Assembly (NCBI RefSeq): GCF_016429285.1
Contig: NZ_JAELUI010000050.1
Location: 1 to 35,961, forward strand
Reading direction: 5' to 3'
DNA length: 35,961 nt
From: Ralstonia sp. ASV6
GTDB taxonomy: Bacteria > Pseudomonadota > Gammaproteobacteria > Burkholderiales > Burkholderiaceae
Part shown: positions 4,512 to 25,129 of the stretch, in pieces
Position numbering within the stretch: the first letter of the stretch is position 1
Layout of the letters: each line of letters begins with the position of its first letter
Notes under the pieces: generated by a model
Told to the model about the DNA's origin: nothing
The model's database searches: none
What the model saw: the letters and a program-made list of their open reading frames with translations, nothing else
Translations under genes and position numbers: made by a program

Positions 4512-5111
4512 TTACTTGCGCACCCAACCGCGCCGCACGCATGGCGCCAGCACCACGCCATGCACCGCCAGCCCGAGGCGGTGCAGCGGCTCTGACAGCG
4601 TATGCGCCACGCGGCCGCTGCCTAGCCAAGCGCTCAGCGTGGCCACACCGGCGGCGCCCAGCATGTCGAACGGATAGTGCACCCCCAGGTAGATGCGCGC
4701 CCAGGCCATCGGCAGGCCCAGCAGCGCCAACCAGACGCCCACGCGACGCAGACGCGCGTCCCACATCAGGCTGAACGCGACCGTCCACCACACCGTCAAG
4801 TGGTCGCTCGGAAACGAGGAATCCGCCACATGCGGCAGCAGATTGGTCCCCAGACCGATCTCAAACGGCCGCGGGTGATACCAGACCAGGCTGAATCCCG
4901 CGCTGATGAGCAGTGCCAGAGCGGTCGCCAACGCGGTCTGCAGCGCACGGCGGCGCGACGTCGGCTCGCCCCACAGCCAGCAGGCTACAAGCGTCAGCGG
5001 CGCCAGCCAGATCAGGTACTCCGCAAAAGACATCGCCAGCCAGAACGTCGTGGGGGCTGGGTCGGTTGGGGCGTTAAGCCAGAGAAACAGGGTGTGATTG
5101 AGTGATTCCAT
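4512..5111 (-). CDS. PAP2-family membrane phosphatase (BcrC-like)
   Basis: A 199-residue membrane protein with the three PAP2 phosphatase signatures in order: the RP pair (81-82, in WYHPRPF), PSDH (101-104, in SSFPSDH) and R139-x5-H145-x3-D149 ([12 protein letters not shown]). The SFPSDH and GVHYPFD forms resemble BcrC/YbjG undecaprenyl-diphosphate phosphatases, which recycle the lipid carrier for peptidoglycan synthesis at the periplasmic face. A phosphatidylglycerophosphatase or lipid A 1-phosphatase role is possible. The lysine that usually opens motif 1 is not evident, and the serine before R139 is Ala. Its stop lies eight bases past the convergent MFS stop. The ATG at 5111 gives the expected short cytoplasmic start. 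Confidence 0.82.
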
Positions 5112-5385
5112 ACCGCATCGGCCTGCAGGCCGGGTTGATTCGACAGCTCCGGTTTGTCCCGCGCACAGTACGGGGCGTTCCCTTCAATTCCCTTGGAGCC
5201 TGCCTGCCGGTAAGGCTACGGCGACAGACTTAGGCAAATCACAGGGCTACCCAAATCGCTGCCTAGGCTTTTCGCCCCGCCGGCCCGTGCCTATGATGGA
5301 GACTCCCAGGCAGCACGCACCCATCGCCGATCGCCACCCCGGCACCGCTGGAGCACACAGCGGGCAACGGACCGAGCGGACACCG

Positions 5386-6786
5386 ATGACCAAACCGGGG
5401 GGTTGGATGGAAAGTTTCCTGATCCGGCGGGCCACGCGCCGGCAGTCAGCCTTTGCCGGCGTGATTGCCTTGCTGATCCTGCTGACGCTAGCCGTGGCCG
5501 CGCCCCGGGCCGGCCTGCCATGGCCCGCCATCAACCCGTTCATGCCGATGTGCGCATTGACGGTCTTTACCACCGCCTGTATCGCCGCCTTCCTGTTGGG
5601 GGCCCAGTTCACCGTCACGCGCCAGCCGATGCTGGGCGCGCTGGGCGGCGCCTATGCCTTCACCGCGCTGGCCGTGGCCCTGCAGTTGCTGATGTTTCCG
5701 GGCGTGTTCTCGCCCACCGGCCTGTTCGGCGCCCGCCCGACCAGTGCGGTATGGATGTGGGTGTTCTGGCACGGCGGCTTTCCACTGTTCGTGATCCTGG
5801 CGGTGCTCACGCGTGACCGGTTCTCGCGCGATGCGGTCTCTACCCGGTACGTGGCCTTGTGGGCATGGCTGTTGATCGGCGGGCCGGTGGTCGTTGGCGC
5901 GCTGCTGTGCGGCGTCGCCCTGATGGCGAATCTGCCGCCGCCGTTGGCGTCATCCACAGGAGGGGCGATTGCCAGCAACCCCGTCGCGGTGGTCCTGTGG
6001 GCGATCAACGCGATTGCCGTGCTGGCGGTGCTCGCGAGCGGCCGCCTGCGCGCCGTGCTGGACGTATGGCTGGCGATTGCCGCGCTCGCGTGCTTTACCG
6101 ATACGAGCCTGAACCTGCTGAGCTCCGACCGCTTTACCGTGGGCTGGTACGTGGCGCGCCTGTTCAGCATGCTCGCCCCTGGGGTGCTGGTGTGCGTGCT
6201 GGTGTGGGAAGTGACGGCGCTGTATCGGCGGCTGTTCGAGGCGCACGTGTCGTTGCGGCAGGCCTCCATGCATGACGCGCTCACCGGTCTGTACAACCGC
6301 AGCTACTTCAGCGAACAGATCGGCGTGCGTATGGGCACTGCCAAACGCAACGGGCAACCGCTGTCGCTCATCATGGTGGATGTGGACCACTTCAAGCGCT
6401 ACAACGACGCGTTCGGCCACCTTAAAGGCGATGCCTGCCTGGCGGCCGTGGCGGCCGCGCTCTCGGGCGTCGTGCGCCGCCCCGGCGATTTCATCGCGCG
6501 CTACGGCGGCGAAGAGTTCGTCATCGTGTTGCCCGACACCGGTCCGACCGACGCACAGGCATTGGCCGAGCGCGCGCGTGAAGCGGTGATGCGCCTGCGC
6601 ATCGACGCTGCTGCGCCTTCACGCTATGTCACGGTCAGCGCCGGCTGTGCCACCGCCACGCCCGGCAGCACAGCCTTCTCCACCGATACGCTGATCGAGA
6701 CGGCCGATGCGGCGCTGTACCAAGCCAAGGCGGCGGGACGCAATCTCGTCATCAGCGCACAGGCCATGGCCACCGCGGTGATGTGA
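5386..6786 (+). CDS. Membrane-bound diguanylate cyclase (MASE4-like + GGDEF)
   Basis: A 466-residue protein. Residues about 20-285 form a multi-helix membrane sensor whose pattern ([33 protein letters not shown]) resembles the MASE4 domain. The C-terminal GGDEF domain starts near ALTGLYNR and has an intact active-site GGEEF (374-378), so it should make cyclic di-GMP from two GTP. An RxxD motif (RPGD, 365-368) lies exactly five residues before GGEEF, the position of the inhibitory product-binding I-site. No EAL domain follows. The ATG at 5386 has GAGCGGA upstream; an ATG at 5407 with a G-run before it is an equally credible start. A further upstream extension looks non-coding. The stimulus is unknown. 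Confidence 0.88.
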
Positions 6787-6904: not shown

Positions 6905-7190
6905 CCTGCTTTCTGTCTCTGTTTACTTCTTTCTTTATATAAAGATAGTAGTAGTAGATAACGGTGGATAAGTTCTGTGGATAGGTGCAAAAACTGCTTT
7001 TGCATCAATGCCTTGCGAAATGCACAACCGTTCGGACAGCATGTGCCGTTGCGTGGATGAGTTCGGTGGATCGCGTCGCACCCTGTGCAACCGCGCAGAA
7101 GTTATTCCTGTGCTGTGGACAACCTAACCCCGGAGAGCCAACACGCTTTTCCCTTGAGTTTTCCACAGCGGGAGGTGGGAGTTATCCACA
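6905..7190. other. oriC-like region: AT-rich tract, TAG triplets, DnaA boxes
   Basis: The 550 bases between the cyclase (6786) and the acyltransferase (7337) hold no convincing gene. From left to right they contain: an AT-rich tract (about 6908-6961); four tandem TAG triplets (6946-6957); then DnaA-box-like 9-mers GGTGGATAA (6963-6971), TGTGGATAG (6976-6984), TGTGGACAA (7114-7122) and TTTTCCACA (7159-7167), each one mismatch from TTATCCACA or its complement, and a perfect TTATCCACA (7182-7190). An AT-rich unwinding tract, TAG-like DnaA-trio repeats and adjacent DnaA boxes are the recognised parts of bacterial origins. No dnaA, dnaN, rpmH or repA is visible, so this may be the origin, a second DnaA-binding locus, or a relic. 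Activity is inferred. Confidence 0.5.
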
Positions 7191-7336
7191 TTGCAGCACG
7201 GCTCAGCTGCGAACCTGCGGTGTATTGAAGATGCGTTGCGATGCTTCGAGTCGCTGCCAACTACACGAGGCTTGCCTCTTTCGACTGGAGCGCAGACACG
7301 ATCGGCGCAGTTGGTGAGGCAAAGAATGCAATCCGC

Positions 7337-8215
7337 TTATGCGGTGCCCGTAGGAGCAGCTGGCGCACCAGCGGGCACCTTGTATCGGTTGTAGCCCCAT
7401 AGGTACTGTTGAGGAAAGCGCCTGACCATCTCTTCCATTTCGGCATTGATCCACGCAGCCTGGGCTTCGGCGCTCTGGGGAAGCGGCCCCGTCAGGCGCT
7501 TCACGTGCATCCGCCAGCCACGCCCACCGGGCAGCCGCTCGCCGGCGGCCACGATCAGGGCCGCGTTCGTCTGCTGAGCGAGCTTGCCTGGCAACGTCAT
7601 GGTGTACGCCAAGCGGCCAAAGAATGGGACCCACACACCGTCGCCCTTCGGGGCTTGATCAGGAAGAAGGCCAACCGCGTCCCCCTGTCGCAACGCGCGT
7701 ACAAACGATCGCACACCTTGCGCTGTTGCTGGCACCGTCTTCAAGTTCGACGTTGCGCGTACGGCATCCAGCAGGCCGCGCAGCATGGCTTTGCGATGCG
7801 GGCGAAACATGATCGTCAACGGAATGCGTTGCGCCGCATAGCGAGCAGCCAGTTCAAAGCAGCCAAGATGGGGGGTGAGCATGATGAGCCCGTTGCGCTC
7901 GGCCAAGGCTTGCTCGATGACGTCCCAGTCCTCACAAATCACCTGGGTCATGCACGCTTCGCTCTGAAACCAGACACGTGCCAGTTCGCTCATCATTGCG
8001 CCGGTTTCTGCCGCTGCCTGCCGTGCAAAGCGGGGCTCTTTAAATCCAGCCTGCGCAGCATTGCGCTGGACATGGCGGCGATATCCACCCGGTATGGCAT
8101 AGACGATCCGACCGAACGCGCGTCCGATGCCATGGATTACAGGCAGTGGCAGTGAGGAGAACAGCCTCAAGAGCGTCGGCAGCGCGCGCTGAGCAAGCTG
8201 GGAAGGGCGATGCAT
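7337..8215 (-). CDS. Lipid A biosynthesis-type acyltransferase (LpxL/HtrB family)
   Basis: A 292-residue protein of the HtrB/LpxL lysophospholipid acyltransferase family, which moves fatty acyl chains from acyl-ACP onto lipid A at the inner membrane. The catalytic HX4E motif is H116-LGCF-E121, after an N-terminal hydrophobic segment (about 12-42). Downstream the family stretch LPDQAPKGDGVWVPFFG and the C-terminal region ending YLWGYNRYK are present. The length fits the family. Its start (ATG at 8215) has GGAG nine bases upstream. It stands alone here, without metK, dapF or a second acyltransferase, so which acyl position it serves cannot be said. It is transcribed toward the origin-like region. 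Confidence 0.88.
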   Translation of the reverse strand: MHRPSQLAQRALPTLLRLFSSLPLPVIHGIGRAFGRIVYAIPGGYRRHVQRNAAQAGFKEPRFARQAAAETGAMMSELARVWFQSEACMTQVICEDWDVIEQALAERNGLIMLTPHLGCFELAARYAAQRIPLTIMFRPHRKAMLRGLLDAVRATSNLKTVPATAQGVRSFVRALRQGDAVGLLPDQAPKGDGVWVPFFGRLAYTMTLPGKLAQQTNAALIVAAGERLPGGRGWRMHVKRLTGPLPQSAEAQAAWINAEMEEMVRRFPQQYLWGYNRYKVPAGAPAAPTGTA

Positions 8216-8311
8216 GGTGTTGCACTCCGGGAGTGAGTTGCCTGACGCGCCGCTAAGCGTTACGCAAGGCGTCAGCTGAAACGGCAGAGGCTAGCGAACC
8301 AATGAAGACGC

Positions 8312-8524
8312 CTACTGGTCAAGCGACCATCCTGGGTTGGGCACGTTTTTCCCTTCGCGATAGGTCCAGCTCGCGCCGCACGTGCGGCATATGAATGTGC
8401 TCACCGTGACGGCCGCTGTCTTGGAAGCTTTGATGCGCTGGGTATCGGTGATTCGTAGGAAGGCATGGCCCGATGCACCAAGTCGGTGGACTTCAATTGC
8501 AAGGCAAGCGTGGCAGAGTGTCAT
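8312..8524 (-). CDS. Small zinc-ribbon-like protein, unknown function
   Basis: A 70-residue protein with two CxxC pairs: C4/C7 (LCHAC) near the N-terminus and a second pair in FICRTCGASW near residue 48. Four cysteines so spaced suggest a zinc ribbon. The start at 8524 is fixed by a strong GAGGAG ribosome site eight bases upstream; the longer frame upstream of it is not supported. No function is recognised. It lies in a run of minus-strand small genes (8312-9165) separated by short gaps. Confidence 0.6.
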   Translation of the reverse strand: MTLCHACLAIEVHRLGASGHAFLRITDTQRIKASKTAAVTVSTFICRTCGASWTYREGKNVPNPGWSLDQ

Positions 8525-8592
8525 GCCAACTCCTCTCTCAAATAACGTGGAACCGATGTAGCGCGCGGGCATTCGTCCGCTTCGTCTTCGGT

Positions 8593-8847
8593 CTAGACGC
8601 CAAAGACAGGAGCGCCATACTTCAACAGCAATTGCTCGATCTGGCTCATGTCATCGATGCGCGGTGTTCTGTCTTCTGTCACGCGTGACGGGCCGCCATA
8701 CACGGCAGCCACATGTCTGCGCACCGTCAGTACATCATTGGCCGGTGGCGCGACGATGACGGCATCGCCAGGCTCGTGCCGGTAGCTGCCATCTTTCCAG
8801 CCCTCGGGCGTGAGATGCAGCTCTTCCCATTCATCACTAACAGACAT
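8593..8847 (-). CDS. Small hypothetical protein
   Basis: An 84-residue soluble protein, acidic at the N-terminus (SDEWEELHLTPEGW), with a central stretch GDAVIVAPPANDVLTVRRHV and no signal peptide or membrane segment. The ATG at 8847 is preceded by AAGGAA with eight-base spacing, which supports it. The family is not recognised. It may share a transcript with the zinc-ribbon gene 68 bases downstream, but a terminator-like hairpin at 8901-8921 separates it from the gene upstream. Confidence 0.5.
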   Translation of the reverse strand: MSVSDEWEELHLTPEGWKDGSYRHEPGDAVIVAPPANDVLTVRRHVAAVYGGPSRVTEDRTPRIDDMSQIEQLLLKYGAPVFGV

Positions 8848-8900
8848 CGTGATTTCCTTCTCGTTGATTCTGGGGTGGCGCCTGCCGGTGCAGCAAGCGG

Positions 8901-8921
8901 AAAAGCCGCCAGAGGCGGCTT
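8901..8921 (-). terminator. Rho-independent terminator
   Basis: On the minus strand an eight-base stem (AAGCCGCC, loop TCT, GGCGGCTT) runs into a T-rich end (complement of 8901-8904). It begins eight bases after the stop of the minus-strand gene at 8929 and so supports that gene being transcribed. Confidence 0.7.
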
Positions 8922-8928
8922 GTGCGAT

Positions 8929-9165
8929 TCAGTTCTTGTCACGGGGGGCTAGACGTGCGATGGCTGCTCTTCCTGCAAGCCGGGCCGCATGTCTTGCGAG
9001 TGCTTCTGTGCGATGTACGTTGTGGCGCATCGAGACGTTGGCGAGGATGCGCTCGACGCCATCGCTGTACTCATTGATGAGATAGGTGGCAAACCAGACG
9101 CCTGGTTCTTGCTCAATCGGGTACACGGACACCGTGTAGGGGGATGGGACTTGGACTTGGTTCAA
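8929..9165 (-). CDS. Small hypothetical protein (beta-beta-alpha type)
   Basis: About 78 residues if started at a TTG (9165). The core reads as beta strands (PYTVSVYPIEQ, VWFATYLINEYSDG, RILANVSMRHN) followed by an Ala/Arg-rich helix (TEALARHAARLAGRAAIARL), a pattern repeated in other small proteins of this zone. No clear ribosome site precedes the TTG, and the frame stays open to an ATG at 9297, so the true start is uncertain. A terminator directly after the stop (8901-8921) argues that the gene is real. Function unknown. Confidence 0.45.
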   Translation of the reverse strand: MNQVQVPSPYTVSVYPIEQEPGVWFATYLINEYSDGVERILANVSMRHNVHRTEALARHAARLAGRAAIARLAPRDKN

Positions 9166-9682
9166 TCGACTGCTAGGTTTCGGGCGAAAGCTGATGGCAA
9201 GCGTGGTGAGACAAGGCAAACCACTTCTTGCTGATGACGTACGCCACGATGGGTAAGGCCAACGCCGTTGTGCCATGCGTATAGGTGCATGGCGCAAGCA
9301 TTGGCGGCGAGGTGACCGTACTTGCGTACGCTGGCACGCCTAGTACATGCGTGCCGGATACGGAGCGGATAAGCCGCCGGTCTGGTAGGTGGTGGGCTAC
9401 GTGGCCCAGGACGATTCGGGTGTACGCCCGACGGGTAGCCGGGGCTGTGTCGTCTTGTTTTGCCCGGCCCCCGGCCCGATCGATTCGAGAAACGGGCAAA
9501 GGTGGCACATGGTAACAGTTTCCCGCAACCACTGCTTCGTGCGAGCCTGGTGCGTCTGCCTCAAACGGTGCGCTCGCTCCCTGATGTGCAAAGGCTGCGT
9601 TGCATGCGCAACATGGGGGCGAGCGACCAAGCGCGGTCGCAACCACATTCATGCGCTATTTCGAGGTTGATTGTCTTTTTCA
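9166..9682. other. Gene-free stretch with an 11-bp hairpin
   Basis: No reading frame here has a credible ribosome site or a recognisable product. The clearest structure is an inverted repeat with 11-base arms (9268-9278 and 9287-9297; one G-U type mismatch) around an eight-base loop. A second, looser pair of eight-base arms (TTTGCCCG about 9459, CGGGCAAA about 9494) lies further on. The remainder may be upstream region of the gene at 9165 (minus) and the cold-shock gene (plus). Confidence 0.4.
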
Positions 9683-9711
9683 TTGACAAAACCTTGCGAT
9701 ACCGGTAGAAG
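9683..9711 (+). promoter_or_regulatory. Promoter of cold-shock gene with long leader
   Basis: A consensus -35 TTGACA (9683-9688), a 17-base spacer and TAGAAG (9706-9711) as -10 suggest transcription from about 9718. The mRNA would then have a leader of about 130 bases before the ATG at 9848, a length typical of cspA-type mRNAs whose leader changes structure with temperature. Temperature response is inferred from the family. Confidence 0.5.
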
Positions 9712-9847
9712 TGGCAGCGCAGGCTTTTCAAGCAGTTACTCCGATGTTTTGGGTTGTCACGTCGAGCGACACCTTTTTCTCTTTGTGCTTCCTTGATCGT
9801 CATGCCTGGTGAGCACGAGCTCATCCAGAATGTTTAAGGAATCCAAC

Positions 9848-10051
9848 ATGGAAACCGGTATCGTAAAGTGGTTCAACGACTCCAAGGGCTTCGGCTTCAT
9901 TACTCCTGACGCGGGCGGCAACGATCTGTTTGCGCATTTCTCTGAAGTTCAGGGAAATGGGTTCAAGTCGCTTCAAGAAGGGCAGAAGGTCAGTTTTGTA
10001 TCAGGCGTCGGCCAGAAAGGCCCGGTTGCGACCAAGATTGCACTGATCTGA
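9848..10051 (+). CDS. Cold-shock protein, CspA family
   Basis: A 67-residue single cold-shock domain, the usual length. RNA-binding motifs are RNP1 KGFGFI (13-18) and RNP2 DLFAHF (26-31; the common form is VFVHF). It begins [10 protein letters not shown] as family members do. Such proteins bind single-stranded RNA or DNA and melt RNA structure, mainly in cold or stress. The ATG at 9848 follows AAGGA (9836-9840). It has its own promoter (9683-9711) and terminator (10070-10098), so it is monocistronic. Which csp paralogue it is cannot be told. Confidence 0.95.
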
Positions 10052-10069
10052 TCGCTCTCGCCAGCCAAT

Positions 10070-10098
10070 AAAAAACCCCGCCACGCGGGGTTTTTTTT
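10070..10098 (+). terminator. Rho-independent terminator of the cold-shock gene
   Basis: A six-base GC stem (CCCCGC, loop CAC, GCGGGG) flanked by six A and followed by eight T, starting 19 bases past the csp stop. It is a textbook intrinsic terminator; the A/T flanks may let it work in both directions. Confidence 0.9.
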
Positions 10099-10126
10099 CG
10101 TATCCGCATATGGCCACGTACCCGAC

Positions 10127-10441
10127 ATGCAGCGCACGCTGTGGGTACCGTGGGTGGCTGTCTTGAACGACACGCCCGGACCGCACCTGCTCAATTGCAG
10201 TGCTTCGGAAGATAGTGACGTCGTCGTGCAGTTATGGGAGTACAGTGGGGCACCAACAATAGCGCGCCGGATCTTGCATTCGTTGATACGAAAGCATTGT
10301 TATCCGCACTTGCAATCACAGCGCTCGGTGCCGCCTCCTCCGCTGGATCAAGCCTTGCACGCTGTCATCCTCGCCTGTTCCGCACACGGACGCTTGCCCG
10401 TTGATGCTCTGACTCGCGATGTCGGTCATGGAGACCCGTGA
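10127..10441 (+). CDS. Possible small hypothetical protein
   Basis: An open frame of up to 104 codons ending in a TGATG stop/start overlap with the next gene (10439-10443), a common sign of translational coupling. The last 60 residues (from about ARRILHS to GHGDP) look more protein-like than the first 40, so a shorter start is likely. No ribosome site clearly fixes a start and no family is recognised. It could be non-coding. Confidence 0.28.
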   Translation: MQRTLWVPWVAVLNDTPGPHLLNCSASEDSDVVVQLWEYSGAPTIARRILHSLIRKHCYPHLQSQRSVPPPPLDQALHAVILACSAHGRLPVDALTRDVGHGDP

Positions 10442-10767
10442 TGCTCGATCTTGTCGCGTTTACCAAGCCGGTGCTCGATGAAATTACCGGGCAGGATGTA
10501 CGGACCTGGAACGCCAGCCCGAGCGTGCTGGCAGCAAACTGGCAGGTACCTGAACTCGACAGCCGCATCTGGCGTGTGAGAACGCTCACGATCGCATTCA
10601 CGCACGATGTCATGAATCAGTTGCTGCACGCGGACCGCCAAGACCTTTGTCAGCTGCAACGCATGCTTGACCGCGTTCTACGGGCACGCCTGGGCGTGCA
10701 TGCCCAGACAGACCTCGGAAGTCGGGCGCTCACGCTTACCGTCGATCGTCTTGGGGGGGATTCCTAG
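10441..10767 (+). CDS. Small hypothetical protein
   Basis: A 108-residue protein beginning MLDLVAFTKPVLDE. GGAGA (10430-10434) lies six bases before the ATG, which supports the start. The C-terminal half (LTIAFTHDVMNQLLHADRQDL, LQRMLDRVLRARLG) looks helical and there is no signal or membrane segment. The family is not recognised. It may be coupled to the frame upstream through the TGATG overlap. Confidence 0.5.
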   Translation: MLDLVAFTKPVLDEITGQDVRTWNASPSVLAANWQVPELDSRIWRVRTLTIAFTHDVMNQLLHADRQDLCQLQRMLDRVLRARLGVHAQTDLGSRALTLTVDRLGGDS

Positions 10768-10858
10768 CCGCCCGGGCCACTCAACGGAATCGCCATTCAC
10801 AGTCACTGTCGGCGCCTTGCCGGGCATCGGCCGTGCCCACGACCAGTTGGAGCCATGC

Positions 10859-10936
10859 ATGAATGCAAGCCCGTCAGCTACGTACAAAGGTTTCGACCTG
10901 TTGATCTTGCGTTGGAGAGGAGTGTTGTGTGCATGA
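10859..10936 (+). CDS. 25-residue ORF; truncated small-protein relative or leader
   Basis: A very short frame with GGAG six bases before its ATG. The peptide contains TYKGFDLLILRW, which resembles the N-terminal CRYKGFDVYPLIYLF of the gene at 12242. It stops at 10934-10936, just inside the next gene (GTG 10929). It may be the broken start of a duplicated family member, or a leader peptide that couples translation to the next gene. Both readings are inference. Confidence 0.35.
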   Translation: MNASPSATYKGFDLLILRWRGVLCA

Positions 10937-11327
10937 CCAGTCCGGAAACAAAATGACTCATACGTCGGACAAGACGAGCTTTCTTTGCACACTGCCTGGA
11001 GCAGCCAAAGGCATGGCGTATTCCATCACCGTTGGCTTTATCGAGAATGGGCACCCGAACTGTGTGCAATTCACCAGTTTCGTAGGTGAAGGAAGGCGAT
11101 CTTTCAGGGTGTTGGCAAGCGCGTCGGATATGCCATTCGCAGCTACGCGCAGCGTTGAAAGCTTTTGTCGATTGGCGATCGGACAGGTGATCCGGGACAG
11201 CCTCTACGCTAAGACTGTCGAGGGTGACCATATTCTCGACATGTGCGCACAGCCCTGGGAGGGTGAGCTCAGGATCGCGGGCTCGAGGCGCTCGCAAGGG
11301 CCGCTGCGCCCGCAATCACTGGGCTGA
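10929..11327 (+). CDS. Small hypothetical protein
   Basis: A 132-residue protein with a likely GTG start (10929), six bases after AGGAG (10918-10922); an internal ATG at 10953 is the alternative. The core (YSITVGFIENGHPNCVQFTSF, RRSFRVLASASD) suggests strands, followed by SVESFCRLAIGQVIRDSL as a helix, similar in layout to neighbouring small proteins. No family is recognised. Its stop lies inside a long palindrome (11306-11360). Confidence 0.5.
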   Translation: MHDQSGNKMTHTSDKTSFLCTLPGAAKGMAYSITVGFIENGHPNCVQFTSFVGEGRRSFRVLASASDMPFAATRSVESFCRLAIGQVIRDSLYAKTVEGDHILDMCAQPWEGELRIAGSRRSQGPLRPQSLG

Positions 11328-11360
11328 CGCGATTGTCAGCCCAATGATTGCCGCGGGCGC
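11306..11360. repeat. Long imperfect palindrome at a gene end
   Basis: Nested arms TGGGCTGAC (11320-11328) and GTCAGCCCA (11335-11343) around a six-base loop are extended by CAATCA/TGATTG (one mismatch between) and then GCGCCCG/CGGGCGC past a three-base bulge. In total about 22 pairs form a 55-base hairpin. It contains the stop codon of the preceding gene (11325-11327). There is no T-tract, so it may be a palindromic repeat unit or an mRNA-stabilising structure rather than a standard terminator. Confidence 0.6.
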
Positions 11361-11493
11361 CCAGTAGGCATGAGGCGCCTTCGGCAAGCATTGCCAATCG
11401 CATCACACCCTGCGGAAGATATTCCCCTTTGCCGAGGGTGAAGCGCGTATGCTGGGGCTGCCATCTGGCAAGCAATGCAACAGGAGTACCACC

Positions 11494-11631
11494 ATGGCCA
11501 AGAGTCAATTGCGCGGCAACCGCGAAGTGAAAAAGCCTAAGCAACCGAAGAAACCAGCGGTGCCGGCGACTCCGTTCAGCACAGTTCAATCGCGGGTCGC
11601 CAGCGAGGTTGCCACCAAGAAGAAGACGTAG
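11494..11631 (+). CDS. 45-residue basic small protein
   Basis: A 45-residue Lys/Pro-rich peptide (KKPKQPKKPAVPATPF in the middle, TKKKT at the end) with a high positive charge, no membrane segment and no cysteine. AGGAG (11482-11486) lies seven bases before the ATG, an almost ideal ribosome site. The composition suggests nucleic acid or ribosome contact, but this is inference and no family is firmly recognised. Confidence 0.6.
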   Translation: MAKSQLRGNREVKKPKQPKKPAVPATPFSTVQSRVASEVATKKKT

Positions 11632-11758
11632 TCGCGTTGGCCGCAGACCTGCCATGCAAGGTCGATGCGGGCCGATGCATCAAGCGTGACGCTTTTTATC
11701 GCGACGTTAACCATCTGCATTGAACGTCAAAAGCGCAGACCGACTCGGGAGGCGCACC

Positions 11759-12076
11759 ATGATCCACCGCGACACACATCAGACATTCCGGGGGCTTCCG
11801 CTAACAACCGAGCAAGAGGCGGAAGTCCGTCATTACTTGAACGTGCAGCGCCGGCTGGGCAAACCATGGAATACCCCGGAGTTGCGGGCGATGCTCAAAG
11901 ATATGCTTCTGCCACCCAGTACCGAGGACGACGGCCGGAGCGCCGCCACGCAGGAGGCATCGGCCGCTGCAGAGCGCGCAGCCACGCTCGTGGACGAGGC
12001 CATGGAGCCCATTGAGGCGTACGAGGAATGGATCGCCGCCATGGAAACCGAGAACATGAAAAAAGATGCGCACTAG
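11759..12076 (+). CDS. Small acidic helical hypothetical protein
   Basis: A 105-residue protein. The first half (LTTEQEAEVRHYLNVQRRLGKPWNTPELRAMLKDML) reads as short helices and the second half is Ala/Glu-rich and probably one long helix (ATQEASAAAERAATLVDEAMEPIEAYEEWIAAME). GGGAGG (11747-11752) lies six bases before the ATG and decides the start; an upstream in-frame ATG at 11720 lacks such a site. The function is unknown. Confidence 0.6.
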   Translation: MIHRDTHQTFRGLPLTTEQEAEVRHYLNVQRRLGKPWNTPELRAMLKDMLLPPSTEDDGRSAATQEASAAAERAATLVDEAMEPIEAYEEWIAAMETENMKKDAH

Positions 12077-12241
12077 GTGCGCGCATCGGCGAGACTCAGG
12101 CCAAGCGCGATAGCTTTGTGACAGCAAGGGGGCATCCGCGTTGTCGCGCAAAGCCCGATGGCTTACCACCGGGCGACGGATAGTTCGATGGCGTGCGCGG
12201 AAAGAGCGTACAGTGGGCTACCTCTTTCAGTGGAGATTGCT

Positions 12242-12526
12242 GTGGATGCCTATCCAACTTGTCGCTACAAGGGGTTCGATGTTTATCCCCTGATCTACCT
12301 GTTTGACCCGCCTCGTGAATGGCATGAGCGGCGTCCGGATCGGACTTACAGCGCCTCCGTGTTGATCTGCCTGGCAGGCGAGCCGCCGAGTACAGAACAC
12401 TCTCGCATCTTCCCGCTGCAGGCGATCCAATGGGAGAGCATCGGAACGGCCAAACGTGCAGCTGCAAAGATGGCCGAAGACATCATCGATGGATTTGTGC
12501 CAGGCCAATCCATGATTGCCGAGTAG
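12242..12526 (+). CDS. Small hypothetical protein with YKGFD motif
   Basis: A 94-residue protein started at GTG (12242) with GGAGA (12232-12236) upstream; earlier ATGs at 12158 and 12188 have no ribosome site. It begins with a strand-like CRYKGFDVYPLIYLF, continues to another strand (TYSASVLICLAG) and ends with a helix (TAKRAAAKMAEDIIDGFV). The YKGFD/YRGYE start and C-terminal helix are shared with the products at 13499-13759 and, in part, 10859-10936, which suggests one small-protein family. Function unknown. Confidence 0.55.
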   Translation: MDAYPTCRYKGFDVYPLIYLFDPPREWHERRPDRTYSASVLICLAGEPPSTEHSRIFPLQAIQWESIGTAKRAAAKMAEDIIDGFVPGQSMIAE

Positions 12527-12622
12527 CTGCACCAGACCTGCGGCCAGTGCCGGTGCTGCGTCGCCCATTACCTGCCTTCGCCGACAACCAAGCGATGCTG
12601 GAGACAGGCAGCAGGAGGTCGT

Positions 12623-13483
12623 ATGGTCCGCATGCGCTATGCGGTCGGTTTGACTTATGAGGTGCGTGACCCGACCGCCGACTTCATCTTCAATTTCCAC
12701 GCCGCACAAACAGCGCGCCAGGCGGTCATCACCGAGTCATTGCAGTTGACCCCGGCGTTGCCAGTTGAGCCCCACACGGAACCCACGCTGCTCAATCGAC
12801 GCCTGCGTGTGCGGGCGCCCAGGGGGCACTTCTCTGTCAGCTACGCTGCAACCGTCAACATCGACCATCTGCTGACACCCCCTGAGCAGTTGTTCGAAGT
12901 CCCCATCGCAGATCTCCCGCTGGATGTCATCACATACCTGGCCCCCAGTCGCTATTGCGAATCGGATCGCCTCATGGAATTTGCGCTGCGGGAGTTCGGT
13001 GGTTATCAACGTGGGTACCCGCTTGTCATCACGATTCGGGACTGGGTCTGCGGCTACGTGCGATTTTCCCCTCACTCTACAAACGAGTGCACGTCTGCTG
13101 TGAGCACGCTCGTTGAGCGCAAAGGTGTGTGCCGGGACTACGCACACCTCATGATCGCCCTGTGCCGCGCACTGAGTATTCCGGCGCGCTTTTCGAGTAG
13201 CCTCGACTACGGTGCTGATCCGCTGATGGGTCCACCGGATTTTCACGCGTTTGTAGAAGTGTTTCTGGGGCATCGATGGAATTTGGTCGACCCATCGAAT
13301 GCGTCAATGCCCATGGGGCTACTGCGAATCGGTACGGGGCGTGACGCAGCGGATGTCCCCATTTCCATGGTCTTCGGCAATGTCAAACCATCGCGACCGC
13401 TGGTGGAAATTCAGGCCATTGCATGCGATGCGCCAGGATTCAGCATGCCAATCGACACGGCACAGGGGATCAGCACATGGTGA
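12623..13483 (+). CDS. Transglutaminase-like cysteine protease-fold protein
   Basis: A 286-residue protein with an N-terminal beta-rich region and a transglutaminase-like core. The expected triad is visible: C170 in GVCRDYAHL, H208 in DFHAFVEVF and D223 in LVDPSN. Bacterial proteins of this type act as peptidases or transferases; the substrate is not known. There is no signal peptide, so it is probably cytoplasmic. AGGAGGT (12613-12619) lies before the ATG at 12623; a second ATG at 12632 is possible. The ATP-grasp and alpha-E genes that often accompany this family are absent, so it stands alone among small genes. Confidence 0.85.
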   Translation: MVRMRYAVGLTYEVRDPTADFIFNFHAAQTARQAVITESLQLTPALPVEPHTEPTLLNRRLRVRAPRGHFSVSYAATVNIDHLLTPPEQLFEVPIADLPLDVITYLAPSRYCESDRLMEFALREFGGYQRGYPLVITIRDWVCGYVRFSPHSTNECTSAVSTLVERKGVCRDYAHLMIALCRALSIPARFSSSLDYGADPLMGPPDFHAFVEVFLGHRWNLVDPSNASMPMGLLRIGTGRDAADVPISMVFGNVKPSRPLVEIQAIACDAPGFSMPIDTAQGISTW

Positions 13484-13498
13484 GGGGGCGATCGTAGC

Positions 13499-13759
13499 TC
13501 ACCACTCATCTGTTGCAGGCGGCGTCTCTTCAACACCAAGGATCACATCGATCGCCGCTCGCCCAGCCAACTCGCCAATCAGGTGCGCCCAACGTCGAGA
13601 AAAGGGGCCGCCGTGGACTTTGATGCGTTTACCAATGGCTGCGACGCCGGGCGACTGTACCGGGCCTTCGATACAAAACCATAAATCAAACATGCCCTCG
13701 GATGCGCCTACAAGCTCCATGTGAATTTCGTAACCACGGTACTTGGTCGTACGAGTCAT
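13499..13759 (-). CDS. Small hypothetical protein with YRGYE motif
   Basis: An 86-residue protein that starts MTRTTKYRGYEIHMEL, with GGGAG five bases before the ATG at 13759. Strand-like segments (YEIHMELVG, MFDLWFCIEGP, AAIGKRIKVHGG) are followed by a helix (WAHLIGELAGRAAIDVILG). The N-terminal YRGYE and the layout match the product of the gene at 12242. It is convergent with the transglutaminase gene; the stops are 15 bases apart. Function unknown. Confidence 0.55.
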   Translation of the reverse strand: MTRTTKYRGYEIHMELVGASEGMFDLWFCIEGPVQSPGVAAIGKRIKVHGGPFSRRWAHLIGELAGRAAIDVILGVEETPPATDEW

Positions 13760-14079
13760 CGCGCTACTCCCGTTGCTGGTCGCGATCGCATGTGCAAGAG
13801 TAGGGTCCAGAATTTTTGGCCGCAATGACTTTTACGATATAAGCCACGAGGGTTCTGTTGTGTCGAGACACGATCAACGTGGAGCAACTTGCAGGCCGAG
13901 CGGTTCAGCGATTCTGATTCTGCGGATTGGGCTCTGAGCGCCGATGGCTGCGGGCAGACCACGCATCGCGACCCAGTGCGCACGGCATTCGAGTCTCGGT
14001 CCTGCAGATCTGGGGCATCGGCCCGCGCGGTTGCTCCATGGGCCTCCGAGCACCGCAGTTTTCGGTTCGTATGTCGCCC
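13760..14079. other. Stretch without a recognisable gene
   Basis: Frames here on either strand lack ribosome sites and read as low-order sequence. The only structure noticed is a short inverted repeat GTGTC-GA-GACAC near 13860-13871, about 100 bases upstream of the minus-strand gene at 13759, which could be a regulatory site. Confidence 0.4.
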
Positions 14080-14235
14080 TCAAACACCTGATGTCGGAAA
14101 AGGCGCTTCTGCTGATTCGTACCGCATCATGAGGAAGCTTCCGTCACTAAGTGGTTCAATCTCGATCTTCTTGGTCGTGCCTGGGCCCGAGCCCCGACCG
14201 TCAAGGGACTTCCGTGTTGGCGCCCAAATCAGCAT
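14080..14235 (-). CDS. 51-residue hypothetical protein
   Basis: A short frame with GGGAG six bases before its ATG (14235). The peptide begins MLIWAPTRKSLDGRG, then reads TTKKIEIEPLSDGSFLMMRYES, with alternating strand-like residues resembling the small beta proteins in this zone, and ends PFPTSGV. No signal or membrane segment is evident. The ribosome site and sensible composition make it a likely small gene; the family is not recognised. Confidence 0.45.
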   Translation of the reverse strand: MLIWAPTRKSLDGRGSGPGTTKKIEIEPLSDGSFLMMRYESAEAPFPTSGV

Positions 14236-14445
14236 AAGTAACTCCCATCCGTTTTGGTACCCGGCAATCGCGGCTGTTAGGTTGGCTAACGGCGGCTCCT
14301 GGCTGCGGATTCAACCGGTCGATGGCAGCTCTCGACCCCGAAGCTGACCTTCAAGCTCGCCGAAAGCGGTCATTCAACTCACTCAAGGCGCGCTGTGGCT
14401 TATTGATTAGGGCTGCAAGTTCCGGGTTGTCGCCCCACCCCGTCC

Positions 14446-14590
14446 TCAGCAGGGGCGTTGCGCTGCGATCGCGATTCGTTCCAGCGTATCGCCAAGGTGT
14501 TGCGCGAAAGCATGCGCTCTGGCGCTCATGTCGCCACGCGATGGGTGGACGAGGTAGAGACCCTGCAGAGTGGCGTCCTGCAGCGGTGGG
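14446..14590 (-). pseudogene. C-terminal fragment of a LysR-type regulator
   Basis: Read on the minus strand, this ends a frame with LQGLYLVHPSRGDMSARAHA and then FAQHLGDTLERIA before a stop. The (V/L)YPSR-x3-SxRxxAFxxxL pattern is characteristic of the end of LysR effector domains. Only about 48 codons remain; upstream of them the frame runs into the antisense of the cupin gene, whose start is at 14594. The rest of the regulator is absent, so this is a remnant left by a rearrangement. Confidence 0.6.
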
Positions 14591-14593
14591 TGA

Positions 14594-14992
14594 ATGCAGA
14601 CCCGCGTTATCGCCGGAACGGCCGACACAGACACGGGCGGTATCGACGCTCCATACACTGTGATGGAAATGCGAATCGGAACACGCGGAGGTGCACCTGC
14701 GCATCGCTCACTGGACGAGGACAAGACCTTTGTCGTGCTGGAGGGCTTGCTCGAATTCCAGATCGGCCTGACCGTTCAGAACGTATCCCCGGGAGCAGTG
14801 GTTACGGTCGCGCGCGGCGACGTACACGGCTTCAACAATCAGGCAGACGTGGACGCGCGCATGCTGCTGATATCCGCGCCGGCAGGTCATGACGCATTCT
14901 TTCGCGCGATGGCTGCGCTGCCGACGCCCCACGATATCGAGGCAGTGCGGCGCATCTGCGAACAAAATCGGCAGGTGATCGTGGGCATATGA
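14594..14992 (+). CDS. Small single-domain cupin protein
   Basis: A 132-residue protein with a cupin beta-barrel pattern: motif 1 around RGGAPAHRSLDEDKTFVVLEG (one His, acidic residues, closing Gly) and motif 2 ARGDVHGFNN (His and Asn). The second histidine of motif 1 is replaced, so metal binding may differ from the standard form. Such proteins are mono-domain enzymes or small-molecule binders; no substrate can be assigned. The ATG at 14594 is preceded by GGTGGG. It lies immediately beyond the LysR fragment, and the two may once have been a divergent regulator/target pair. Confidence 0.75.
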   Translation: MQTRVIAGTADTDTGGIDAPYTVMEMRIGTRGGAPAHRSLDEDKTFVVLEGLLEFQIGLTVQNVSPGAVVTVARGDVHGFNNQADVDARMLLISAPAGHDAFFRAMAALPTPHDIEAVRRICEQNRQVIVGI

Positions 14993-15034
14993 GCACGGAT
15001 GCCGAAACAGTGGTGCCTCGGCAAGAGGCTGCGC

Positions 15035-15280
15035 TCACAGAACAACAAAAATTGAGGGGCTATTGTGCAGCGTGCCCCCCGCCCTGCCAGTCAGACGCGC
15101 GATTTCACGGACCTGAAACTCCTTATCCGGCCGCAGCAGGAGTAAATCCGGCACGCGGCGCCGGTAGTGGCTGAAGAGGAAGGGAGCGAGAGCTTGTCGC
15201 ACAACACCGGCTACGATTGCAGCTGAAATAGCTACATCTGCTTGGGCTATTTCGATGGGCACAGATGCTGCCTGACGCAC
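15035..15280 (-). pseudogene. N-terminal fragment of a winged-helix regulator
   Basis: The minus-strand frame contains FLFSHYRRRVPDLLLLRP and then DKEFQVREIARLTGRAGGTL, the start of a winged-helix domain of the kind found in ArsR-like and nucleotidyltransferase-linked regulators (LFxxxRxRVLxLLFxxPDxxFxxxEIxRLxG-x3-G). After the recognition-helix start the frame degenerates within nine codons, so the wing and everything after it are missing. The first codon is a GTG at 15280 with no strong ribosome site. It is most likely a truncated gene; a very short functional protein is less likely. Confidence 0.5.
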
Positions 15281-15343
15281 TCGCCGTTTCAGTTATCCTT
15301 GCCGCTTCGCGTTGTCACCCGCCCGTCGGCCTTTGCCCGCCGC

Positions 15344-15643
15344 ATGACTGAAACCGATCCATCCCACCGCGTCCGCGTCGAACCGCTCGGCGTCAGCTTC
15401 GACGCGCCGGAATCGCTGACACTGCTCGAAGCCGGTGGCTTCGCTGGTGTGTCGCTGCCGCGCTCGTGCCGCAACGGCACCTGCCGAAGCTGCCTCTGCC
15501 GGATCGTCAGCGGCACCGTCCGCTACACGATCGAATGGCCGGGCCTGAGCCGCGAGGAAAAAGCCAAAGGCTACACGCTGCCGTGCGTCGCGATCGCGAC
15601 GTCGGACGTCATCGTCGACGTGCCCGATGCGACCGTGGCATAA
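15344..15643 (+). CDS. [2Fe-2S] plant-type ferredoxin domain protein
   Basis: A 99-residue protein with the cysteine pattern of plant-type ferredoxins: three cysteines in SCRNGTCRSC (C-x4-C-x2-C), an additional one in SCLCR, and a fourth ligand in YTLPCVA about 35 residues later. It should carry electrons through a [2Fe-2S] cluster, probably for an oxidoreductase. The ATG at 15344 precedes MTETDPSHRVRV; no strong ribosome site is visible. The SDR gene follows after 22 bases, so the two are probably one transcript. No reductase or oxygenase partner is adjacent. Confidence 0.82.
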   Translation: MTETDPSHRVRVEPLGVSFDAPESLTLLEAGGFAGVSLPRSCRNGTCRSCLCRIVSGTVRYTIEWPGLSREEKAKGYTLPCVAIATSDVIVDVPDATVA

Positions 15644-15665
15644 GTCCGCAGCCTCCATTACGCTC

Positions 15666-16370
15666 ATGACGAATCCACCCGCCAGCCCGCCGCCCCTCCT
15701 CCCGCGTCATGTCGCGGTGATCGGCGCAGCGGGCGGCCTCGGCCAAGCCATCCTGCGCATCTGCCGCGCCGAGGGCATCCGTTTCACCGCCATCGTCCGT
15801 TCCAGGCCCGAGCGGATCGCCGACGTGCCGGCCGGCTGCCGCGTCGCCGTCGTCCGTTCGCTCGCGGACCGCGCTGCGCTCACCGATGCATTCGCCGGCA
15901 CCGACGCGGTGCTCACCGCGCTCGGCGTCACGCCGACGAGCGACGATCCATCCTCGCGGCTTTCCGCGAATATGGACACGGTAAACGCGTCGATGCGTGC
16001 AGCGGATGTCGACCGCATCGTCGTGGTCAATACGCTGCTGACAGCGCCGCCGGGCGAACCGCCGAGTCGCGCGATCCGGTTCTTTTCGCACGTACCCGGC
16101 CGGATCGGCCGAGGCGCGGCCGAATTGCAGGCCGTCGTCGACGCGCTCGGCAACGGCGCGTTCGCGTCGCTGCGCTGGACGCTCGTGCGCGCGGCCGTCA
16201 ATGCGCGCGGCAAGGACGAACGCCCGGCCGCGTCGGTAGACGCGAACGGCACACGCAACAACAGCCTGATGCCGGTGTCGTATGACGCAATGGGAAGATG
16301 GATGCTCGAAGAAGCGGCGGCGAACGCGTTCGTACGCCAGGCGCCGAAGGTGTCGCGGCAGCGAAACTGA
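15666..16370 (+). CDS. NAD(P)-binding SDR/NmrA-like protein
   Basis: A 234-residue protein with a Rossmann nucleotide-binding start (VAVIGAAGGLGQAILR, about 15-30) typical of atypical SDR or NmrA-like proteins (GxxGxxG). A second strand ends in VRS with an arginine fit for NADP. The YxxxK catalytic pair of classical SDRs is not evident, so it may be a redox sensor or isomerase rather than a dehydrogenase. It lies 22 bases after the ferredoxin gene and is followed at once by a hairpin (16374-16392). Codon choice in this pair (many CGTCG and GCGCG steps) looks somewhat different from the neighbours, hinting at transfer. Confidence 0.78.
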   Translation: MTNPPASPPPLLPRHVAVIGAAGGLGQAILRICRAEGIRFTAIVRSRPERIADVPAGCRVAVVRSLADRAALTDAFAGTDAVLTALGVTPTSDDPSSRLSANMDTVNASMRAADVDRIVVVNTLLTAPPGEPPSRAIRFFSHVPGRIGRGAAELQAVVDALGNGAFASLRWTLVRAAVNARGKDERPAASVDANGTRNNSLMPVSYDAMGRWMLEEAAANAFVRQAPKVSRQRN

Positions 16371-16373
16371 TCT

Positions 16374-16392
16374 CGCGTTCGGAGCGAACGCG
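16374..16392 (+). terminator. Hairpin after the SDR gene
   Basis: A perfect eight-base stem (CGCGTTCG / CGAACGCG) with a three-base loop starts three bases after the SDR stop. Position suggests a terminator, but no T-tract follows, so it may act as an mRNA 3'-end structure. Confidence 0.5.
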
Positions 16393-16488
16393 GGCCGCCG
16401 GGGGTGTCAGGTTTTCCGTGCCATCCAGCAACGCGCGTAGCGCCGTTAGTTTCTCCGGTCCCGAGTTGACACGCGAGAACCGCCTCGT

Positions 16489-16650
16489 TCACCTCGTTAC
16501 CGGCGACCGGCTTTCACTGACTGCGGGCTCTTCCACATTAAGACTCAAATTCAGATCGTCGCCAATCAGGAACGTGAGAGAGTGGCCGACCGATGCCTCG
16601 AGTTCGTCGCTGATGTCTGCGGCAAGACATTCAGCCCCGTTGTAACGCAT
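16489..16650 (-). CDS. Possible 53-residue protein
   Basis: A minus-strand frame starting MRYNGAECLAADISDELEAS, with ACAAGG directly before the ATG at 16650. The peptide is acidic, with strand-like stretches (HSLTFLIGDDLNLSL). It reads as plausible protein but no family is recognised and the ribosome site is too close to be convincing. It may be a fragment, as other remnants lie nearby. Confidence 0.3.
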   Translation of the reverse strand: MRYNGAECLAADISDELEASVGHSLTFLIGDDLNLSLNVEEPAVSESRSPVTR

Positions 16651-16796
16651 CCTTGTCTTCAGCACGAGCAGGATGCCATTGAGTGCTGCACAGTCCGAGA
16701 CCGGCAGACGCCCAACCGCACAGCAAGCGGCTGTTGATACCGGTTGGCGCGTCGCCATTCGGTCTCCAGCGCACTGTCAAATGCACGTCGTGTCGC

Positions 16797-16880
16797 CAAG
16801 CCGCCGCTGCCGCGGAGGCATTGGAGGAGCAGGCGGACGAGCTGCGCCGTGGGGTGGCAGTGTTCCGCGTGACGGTATAG
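16797..16880 (+). pseudogene. C-terminal fragment of a chemoreceptor (MCP)
   Basis: The plus-strand frame reads QAAAAAEALEEQADELRRGV then AVFRVTV before a stop. The pattern A-x3-AxxLxxQAxxLxxxVxVFR is the usual C-terminus of methyl-accepting chemotaxis proteins. Only 27 codons remain, and the sequence before them is unrelated, so the rest of the receptor has been lost. It lies about 107 bases beyond the 3' end of the tRNA-Ala gene. Confidence 0.65.
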
Positions 16881-16987
16881 GAAGCCCTTTCTTGAGAGCG
16901 ATTGCACGGTCCGGCGAAGAGCATTTCTTCGTCGGGCCCCGTTCTTTGCTCTCTGGGTCAGGAGAACCGTTGGGCTTCAGGGAAGTG

Positions 16988-23840: not shown

Positions 23841-25129
23841 CCGAGCATGTCCGACCAGATCGCCCGGCTCCAGCCCTGGGCCAGTTTGCCCTCCGCTACG
23901 GAGGGGCCATCCGACAGCCCGCCCGCGCCTTGCACCGTCACCATGGTGCGCTCGGCCGGGTCATAGCGGTGCACGGTTGCCACATGCATCGCCTCGTCGG
24001 GGGTGATGAAGCTGTAGCAGGTGTTGGCGTACAGCGGTGATGCATCGGGCGCGTGCCCGGCGAGCATCGCTACCACGGCGGCGGCGGCCACCTTGCCGTG
24101 CTGGTTGGCCATGTGCCCGGATTTGGGCATCAGCGGTGCGGTCTGGATGGCGTCGCCAATCACATGTACACCCGGCGCCACCTTCGATTCGAACGACAGG
24201 AAATCGACTTCGCACCAGCGCCCGTTGGCGGTCGCCAGCTCTGCTTGCACGGCAATGGCTCCGGCGCGCTGCGGCGCAATGAGGTTGACCACATCTGCCT
24301 GCACGTCGTCCTGCACGTCGAACTTGAGCACGCGGCCCGTAGCGTCGATGTCGACCGCGTTGTATTGCGGGCGATATTCGATGTGCTGTGGATAACGTTC
24401 CGCCCACACGCGCTTGAACAGCGTGCCCTTGGAGGTCACGTCGTCATTGGCATCGAGGATCAGCACGCGTGAATCGGGCTTGGCGCGCTGCAGCCAGTTG
24501 GCGATCAGGCAGGCGCGCTCGTACGGCGCGGGCGGGCAGCGGTACGGCGCCAGTGGAATGCTGATCGCCACCGTGCCGCCGTTGGGCATCGCCTCCAGCC
24601 GGTGACGCAGCGCGAGCGTCTGCGTGCCCGCCTTCCACGCGTGCGGTGCCTGTGCGGCAGTGGCCGCGTTGGCCAGACCGGGAATCGCCCCTGGCACGAA
24701 GTCGATGCCCGGCGAGAGGATCAACCGGTCGTACTCAAGCGTGCCACCGCCACCCAGGCGCACCTGCTTCGCGCCAATGTCGATGGCCGAGGCGCGATCG
24801 CGCACCCAGCGCACGCCGTGGCGCTCGACCAGCGCGTCGTACGGCACGGTGATCGAGGCAAGATCGCGGTCACCCGACAGTACGAGGTTCGACAGTGGGC
24901 ACGACACGAACGCGGCATTCGGCTCGACCAATGTCACGTCGACATGGTTGCCGGAGAACACGCGGACATACTTCGCCGCCGTCGCACCGCCGTAGCCGCC
25001 ACCAACCACCACGACGCGCGCATTGCGCGTGCCAGAGAGCGAAGCGCATGCGGCCAGCGGGCCGACCAAGGCTGTCGCCCCAAGCGCCCGCAGTACGGCG
25101 CGCCGATCCTCACGCAGGGTCTGGCTCAT
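23837..25129 (-). CDS. fccB: Flavocytochrome c sulfide dehydrogenase, flavoprotein subunit
   Basis: A 430-residue exported flavoprotein that oxidises sulfide and passes electrons to the cytochrome subunit. Seen: a twin-arginine-like N-terminus (REDRRAVLRALGATALVG), an FAD-binding fold RVVVVGGGYGGATAAK (38-53), VEPNAAFVSCPLSN, and cysteines in YRCPPAPYE and ANTCYSF that match the redox disulfide of FccB. The second FAD motif is in VHVIGDAIQ. The ATG at 25129 overlaps the fccA stop (ATGA). The stop codon is provided by the palindromic element at 23676-23840, so the original C-terminus may have been slightly different. Also called SoxF in sox clusters. Confidence 0.9.
   Translation of the reverse strand: MSQTLREDRRAVLRALGATALVGPLAACASLSGTRNARVVVVGGGYGGATAAKYVRVFSGNHVDVTLVEPNAAFVSCPLSNLVLSGDRDLASITVPYDALVERHGVRWVRDRASAIDIGAKQVRLGGGGTLEYDRLILSPGIDFVPGAIPGLANAATAAQAPHAWKAGTQTLALRHRLEAMPNGGTVAISIPLAPYRCPPAPYERACLIANWLQRAKPDSRVLILDANDDVTSKGTLFKRVWAERYPQHIEYRPQYNAVDIDATGRVLKFDVQDDVQADVVNLIAPQRAGAIAVQAELATANGRWCEVDFLSFESKVAPGVHVIGDAIQTAPLMPKSGHMANQHGKVAAAAVVAMLAGHAPDASPLYANTCYSFITPDEAMHVATVHRYDPAERTMVTVQGAGGLSDGPSVAEGKLAQGWSRAIWSDMLG

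Follow-up and report, generated by a model that had tools for sequence, protein, structure and literature searches.

Within the parts of the cited sources that were available, the basal unwinding system (BUS) of bacterial replication origins (oriC) is described as a DnaA box with no more than two mismatches, a spacer of up to 16 bases and at least three DnaA trios (PMC8287927), and putative double origins have been assigned by Gao (2015) to chromosome 1 of Ralstonia pickettii 12D, one beside hemE and the other beside dnaA (PMC4403523). Chromosome 1 of Cupriavidus metallidurans CH34 has its GC-skew switch at a distance of about 90 kb from dnaA, next to a stretch of 213 nt that contains three perfect boxes, and another cluster of boxes is located some 130 kb away (PMC2864759). 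Clusters of boxes away from oriC are described in Escherichia coli for datA, in which boxes 2, 3 and 7 surround an IHF site and ATP is hydrolyzed on DnaA (PMC5835720, PMC5742627), and for the DnaA-reactivating sequences (DARS), in which a core of three boxes (I-III) with defined spacing serves nucleotide exchange (PMC5742627). The subject of the present analysis is an oriC-like element, designated unit A, in a 35,961-nucleotide stretch of the genome of Ralstonia sp. ASV6 (the window), which is judged from its sequence to be a paralogue of the chromosomal origin in an ectopic position, its unwinding module being apparently complete; the other two types of this unit in the genus are designated B and C, and a separate cluster of DnaA boxes is designated D.

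Like the BUS, unit A has a DnaA box, a 5-base spacer and four trios, followed by an AT-rich tract (PMC8287927); unlike it, unit A is a further copy, the direction switch of the chromosome lying at another copy in the relatives compared. The double origins of R. pickettii 12D resemble the present case in that the main chromosome of the genus is proposed to have several origins; however, the hemE locus ('oriC 1') corresponds in place to cluster D and not to A, B or C, none of which is named in the available text (PMC4403523), and its distance from dnaA is 291 kb in that strain as against 290-309 kb in the complete relatives G008, G010 and G006. In G008 and G010, unit C has three perfect boxes and a span of 213 nt, the same as that of the CH34 stretch, with which it was compared by description; the two CH34 clusters are not described in the available part of that source as related units bearing trios, nor is Ralstonia said there to have three (PMC2864759). 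With datA and DARS, unit A shares the property of being a chromosomal DnaA-box cluster away from oriC, but in those loci the boxes are combined with IHF (and Fis) sites and neither trios nor an unwinding tract is mentioned in the available text (PMC5835720, PMC5742627), and unit A differs further in being homologous to an origin. No earlier account of the three units was found in the parts of the open-licence literature at hand, in which 'DnaA-trio' together with 'Ralstonia' gave none.

Unit A and the family of origin-like units

The first-pass annotation of the window had pointed to a cluster of five DnaA boxes preceded by four TAG triplets and an AT-rich tract, with no dnaA nearby, and each of these components was recovered (Table 1). 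Ten boxes with at most one mismatch occur in the whole window, five of them inside 228 bases of unit A, which is beyond any of 300 dinucleotide-preserving shuffles (mean of 2.45 boxes per window; maximum of two inside 230 bp). The triplets end five bases before the first box, and the least stable 40-bp stretch of all 35,961 bases begins at 6922, next to them (nearest-neighbour energy 41.4, against a median of 63.8); with the one-mismatch box at 6963, the spacer of five and the four TAG, unit A falls within the BUS rules. No dnaA was seen in the window, and the single DnaA-family match of the genome sits on another contig between dnaN and rpmH, with DnaA boxes of its own. The extent originally proposed, 6905 to 7190, holds for the element and not for its limits, which the profile match described below puts at 6922 and 7194.

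A DNA search of 61 genomes (the window's own and 60 relatives) gave matches in 16, all of the window's genus and mostly at three places per genome, and none in the other 45. The 45 aligned units share one layout, namely a T-rich tract, four TAG, ATAACGG, a pair of boxes, about 130 bp and then more boxes. Profile R1, built from the aligned A, B and C units and therefore matching the window's unit A, one of its 45 rows, by construction, was run on 150 genomes of the family and matched 128 of them, in 17 of 25 genera. All three paralogues were present in 14 of the 15 genomes of the window's genus and two in the remaining draft (G001); in the window's own genome, units B and C lie on contigs C171 and C181 (profile R1, alignment A1). 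Type B was found, among the genomes compared, only in this genus. Genus g3 has two units in 13 of its 14 genomes and one unit in the other, and g13, a 2-Mb genus of the same family, has a single unit in each of 14. At the level of the order, 21 of 120 genomes were matched, 17 of these outside the family, with a single match in 16 of the 17. The strict filters of both profile searches drop weak matches, so that the counts are lower bounds; G007, 88% complete, stood outside the family search, the unsorted units G007_x and G001_x are outside the conservation counts for A, B and C, and the C unit of G008 is absent from alignment A1. Two or three unit matches, in some cases about 3 kb apart (G028, G077, G159), also occur in several further genera of the family, and multiple origin-like units are thus not confined to the window's genus. 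Descent from a plasmid origin inserted into the chromosome was rejected, since blastn found no copy of the unit among 72,556 plasmid records, a search that did not extend to phage records.

The units are conserved well beyond their surroundings. Over 78 pairs from 13 genomes, the mean identity of unit A is 84%, against 57% and 56% for its flanks (130 and 140 bp), and the unit is more alike than both flanks in 76 of the 78; the left flank nevertheless reaches 87% and 80% identity in the two close pairs, those with G006 and G004, respectively. The TAG run, TAGTAGTA[GA]TA[GA], is intact in 14/14 A, 14/14 B and 15/15 C units, and inside the aligned unit C has exactly three perfect boxes in 15/15 and A exactly one in 14/14, accompanied in every unit A by one-mismatch boxes. 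The lack of conservation of boxes and triplets among related strains, which the first-pass annotation had proposed as grounds for dropping its idea, was accordingly not observed. Between A and C the TAG run is 99% identical and the box pair 87%, as against 57-61% for the remaining segments; because conservation between the two is strongest in the core of the unwinding part, a function in strand opening would be favoured over mere binding of DnaA.

The history of the units can be followed in part. The sister-genus genome G166 is collinear with G008 across the gene block that ends at C, and a second unit lies in G166 6.7 kb before the first gene of that block, on the matching side (the only side comparable); a pair of units probably predates the split of the genera. 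Unit A sequences of the window's clade (G000, the window's own genome, with G004 and G006) group apart from the other 11 A units (approximately unbiased test, p 0.0022). They share 74-80% identity with the B unit found in the same genome and, on average, 69-71% with other A units, so that A was probably overwritten from B in this clade. In the other 10 genomes tabulated, A is closer to other A units than to its own B.

Position of the main replication origin

In G006, G008, G010 and G011, dnaA is at the start of the contig, and the order before it is A (plus strand), cluster D, three parS sites, C (minus) and B (minus). The positions in G008 are 3.039 Mb for A, 3.126 for D, 3.152 for parS, 3.180 for C and 3.203 for B, of 3.416 Mb. 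Units A, B and C together occupy 163-180 kb of the main chromosome in the genus; A and C are 138-148 kb apart in G006, G008 and G010, and C is about 240 kb from dnaA. The parS sites adjoin parA, gidB and gidA (G006), and C lies between a SET-domain gene and a gene for an HU-family DNA-binding protein in G006, G008 and G166; in the G006 segment 3500000-3519999, C with these flanks occupies 15083-16550 of the segment. Cluster D consists of three DnaA boxes at spacings of 14 and 179 bases, identical in G006, G008 and G010, and has no run of three or more TAG in these genomes; in G006 it is placed between priA and hemE (about 9575-9776 of segment C1:3440000-3459999).

The position just behind dnaA is the textbook place of oriC. 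In g13 the single unit is found there in 9/9 genomes checked, beginning about 1.0 kb after the point where the DnaA-domain match starts, and through profile R1 unit A is homologous to this element at the canonical place. The order dnaA-unit-dnaN was confirmed in one g13 genome, G158, where dnaA ends at 1428, the unit extends from 1435 to 1687 and dnaN starts at 1693, the unit thus filling the gap between the two genes. Because of this location in g13, the unit very probably represents the family's oriC, separate from dnaA in several genera; where unit and dnaA share a contig in the other genera compared, they are 14 kb (G103) to about 300 kb (G166) apart.

Which of the three copies acts as main origin in the window's genus was judged from the excess of T over A at four-fold sites, with genes of both strands treated separately and with training genes from G008. 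The window holds too few genes for such an analysis and its own genome is in 718 contigs; the test rests on the complete relatives G006, G008 and G010. The strand signal was clear (leading 0.18-0.23, lagging 0.00-0.07). The best single direction switch was at 3,178,658-3,179,781 in G008 (C at 3,180,290), at 3,515,359-3,516,351 in G006 (C at 3,515,880) and at 3,256,522-3,257,437 in G010, where C, at 3,264,420, scored just 0.1 lower. Relative to the best switch, the score dropped by 8-17 at B, 11-29 at parS, 46-62 at D, 20-62 at A and 81-121 at dnaA, and with A as the only switch the score was below that for C by 20 in G006 and by 61-62 in G008 and G010. The main switch of replication direction is therefore placed at C, and neither at A nor at dnaA, in 3/3 of these genomes.

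A second line of evidence came from the terminus. An initial dif pattern had no match on any dnaA-bearing contig, and a relaxed one matched a single place on the dnaA-bearing contig of each of four genomes (on both strands in two of them). The point opposite this dif-like site is 45, 88, 27 and 62 kb from C and 96, 226, 175 and 215 kb from A in G008, G006, G010 and G011, respectively, and is closer to C than to A or dnaA in 4/4; it is closer to B than to C in three (G006, G010 and G011), which speaks somewhat for B. The raw cumulative GC skew disagrees with the four-fold-site result and thereby counts against placing the origin at C: within the 399-400 kb examined before dnaA, its minimum is at 3,275,127 (G008), 3,623,671 (G006) and 3,367,087 (G010), that is, 95-108 kb past C and 135-141 kb before dnaA. 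Raw skew was set aside as an origin locator, and the four-fold-site result was preferred, because the latter controls for gene direction and because little signal was seen in the four-fold-site G/C skew of the genomes tested. Since the asymmetry switches at C in three complete relatives, C is very probably the oriC of the genus and A an ectopic paralogue. Of the interpretations offered initially, an origin in an unusual setting is therefore not supported for this locus, whereas an ectopic origin copy is, unit A being a conserved paralogue of the oriC unit; a skew minimum placed elsewhere, the other refuting outcome named in the first-pass annotation, was observed, as was a direction switch elsewhere, which removes A as main origin and leaves it as an origin copy.

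Possible roles of unit A

Strand asymmetry around A, expressed as a rightward index, gives a hint that A may fire. For genes with orthologues between G008 and G010, the index stands at -0.13 (G008) and -0.15 (G010) to the left of A, at 0.004 and -0.003 from A to D, and at -0.10 in both from D to C, becoming positive beyond C. The stretch from D to C is clearly leftward in G006, G008 and G010, as are the 400 kb left of A in G008 and G010. In G006, which belongs to the clade of the overwritten A, the A-D index leans rightward, at +0.101 (0.029 to 0.174) for genes with G010 orthologues, and on the same A-D genes the 95% intervals of its difference from G008 and G010 are 0.007-0.154 and 0.055-0.163. 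With all genes, the A-D values are -0.016 (G008), -0.029 (G010) and +0.072 (G006); among 63 overlapping windows of the same length left of A, none is as weak as the A-D stretch in G008 (weakest, -0.042) or G010 (weakest, -0.080). Cluster D is near the midpoint between A and C, and a two-origin model with A and C placed the best meeting point of forks at 3,456,551 in G006 (midpoint, 3,446,600) and at 3,146,607 in G010, which is 44 kb to the left of the midpoint there. Occasional firing of A would be expected to abolish or invert the asymmetry between A and the A-C midpoint, and the pattern observed is only suggestive in this respect. An inversion of the A-D stretch is unlikely as the cause of this pattern because gene order is collinear between G006 and G008 and between G166 and G008, insertions aside, and firing at cluster D is disfavoured by the leftward D-C stretch in all three complete genomes.

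Our first choice, held with confidence that is about evenly balanced, is that unit A is an auxiliary origin. DnaA would bind the box pair at 6963-6984, a DnaA oligomer would extend from there onto the TAG triplets and open the T-rich tract, and unit A would fire in some cells or some cycles, its single perfect box, against three in C, making it the less efficient of the two. Several points weigh against such a role. Firing of unit A is something we infer from sequence patterns, box clusters also occur at DnaA-regulating loci, and a natural bacterial chromosome with two working origins was unproven as of Gao (2015), in the text available (PMC4403523). The A-D index of G006 falls to +0.077 with G008 orthologues, its interval (-0.012 to 0.159) including zero, and gene-level tests of the stretch gave p 0.059 (G006), 0.32 (G010) and 0.54 (G008), although the G006 value stays at 0.060 or above when any single gene is dropped. 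Adding A as second origin brought a large gain in G006 (48.7), but with only 12 null starts for comparison, a gain of 7.8 in G010 that was equalled by 4.9% of 326 null starts, and a gain of 0.0 in G008. In G166 both zones are near zero. Moreover, G006, G008 and G010 are related and hence not independent, and the simple open reading frame caller makes errors, assigning the wrong strand to the HU gene beside C in G008 and G166.

That unit A never fires and is instead an origin-derived sink or timing locus for DnaA, with a datA- or DARS-like effect that would lower or reset the level of active DnaA shortly after replication of C, is a possible explanation, to which we give lower probability. It accords with the conserved boxes, and at 138-148 kb from C the locus would be duplicated soon after initiation, as datA is, close to the E. 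coli oriC (PMC5742627, in the part available); yet a sink needs boxes and not the TAG run, which is the best-kept part between paralogues, and it leaves the weak or reversed asymmetry right of A unexplained. The earlier proposal of a second DnaA-binding locus controlling initiation is likewise a plausible, if less probable, reading. A functionless relic, meaning a duplicate of the origin whose likeness is maintained through recombination with B or C, is improbable: the closeness of the clade's A units to their own B is what gene conversion would give, but conversion does not explain the kept sequence in the 10 genomes in which A is closer to other A units, and the TAG run is intact in all 14 A units and a second unit occurs at the matching side of the gene block in the sister genus. 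The location of unit A between two genes would allow its boxes to regulate a neighbouring gene, which we consider very improbable, as the right neighbour is a lipid A acyltransferase gene in the window and a LysR gene in G006 and, on average, similarity is far lower in the flanks than within the unit. Least probable of all is that unit A is the main origin of the window's species; its sequence bears the hallmarks of an origin and the asymmetry right of A leans rightward in the close complete relative G006, but the score deficit of a switch at A alone and the greater distance of A from the point opposite the dif-like site in 4/4 genomes stand against it, and the window's genome also has B and C.

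If the auxiliary-origin reading is extended to the genus, chromosome 1 would be a natural multi-origin chromosome, in which A and C (perhaps also B) fire, forks meet near the midpoint and the use of A varies by species, being highest in the window's clade with its A renewed from B; we put this forward as a rather doubtful extension. The use of more than one origin by a natural bacterial chromosome is treated as an open question in the available text of Gao (2015; PMC4403523), and natural strains suited to answering it are available in a genus whose three conserved origin units lie within 163-180 kb, with one of them at the direction switch and the other two away from it. If the extra units are silent, the question becomes how cells keep further unwinding modules silent. 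In practical terms, numbering the chromosome from dnaA puts the likely origin of the genus about 240 kb out of place, which would bias growth-rate estimates based on coverage.

Features and surroundings of unit A in the window

Table 1. Unit A, its component parts and the neighbouring genes, in window coordinates
Feature	Position	Strand	Basis
oriC-like unit A	6922..7194	+	profile R1 match, 216 bits, E 6e-64; paralogue of units B and C
AT-rich, T-rich unwinding tract	6922..6945	+	window's least stable 40 bp begin at 6922
Four tandem TAG triplets (DnaA-trio)	6946..6957	+	direct reading
DnaA box TTATCCACC	6963..6971	-	1 mismatch; spacer to triplets of 5 bases
DnaA box CTATCCACA	6976..6984	-	box scan
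DnaA box TTGTCCACA	7114..7122	-	box scan; mean pairwise identity 97% over 14 A units
DnaA box TTTTCCACA	7159..7167	+	box scan
Perfect DnaA box TTATCCACA	7182..7190	+	box scan
MASE4-GGDEF diguanylate cyclase gene	5098..6786	+	Pfam; left neighbour, context outside the unit
Lipid A acyltransferase family gene	7337..8215	-	Pfam; right neighbour, context outside the unit

To the right of unit A and of the acyltransferase gene, whose place is taken by the LysR gene in G006, the window is variable from 8216 to 16900; the part at about 11.3-15.2 kb is without a match of 400 bp or more to the G006 segment compared, and at the corresponding place G008 has about 30 kb without a long match. This variable stretch is perhaps an insertion hotspot beside the origin copy. 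Within it, the block 15248-16435, carrying the gene for an NAD-binding protein, is 98% identical to another place in G006 (3549354-3550541), the other matches being 79-92% identical, and is recently moved or shared. A lone perfect DnaA box, at 24387-24395 on the minus strand, lies within a gene for flavocytochrome c sulfide dehydrogenase.
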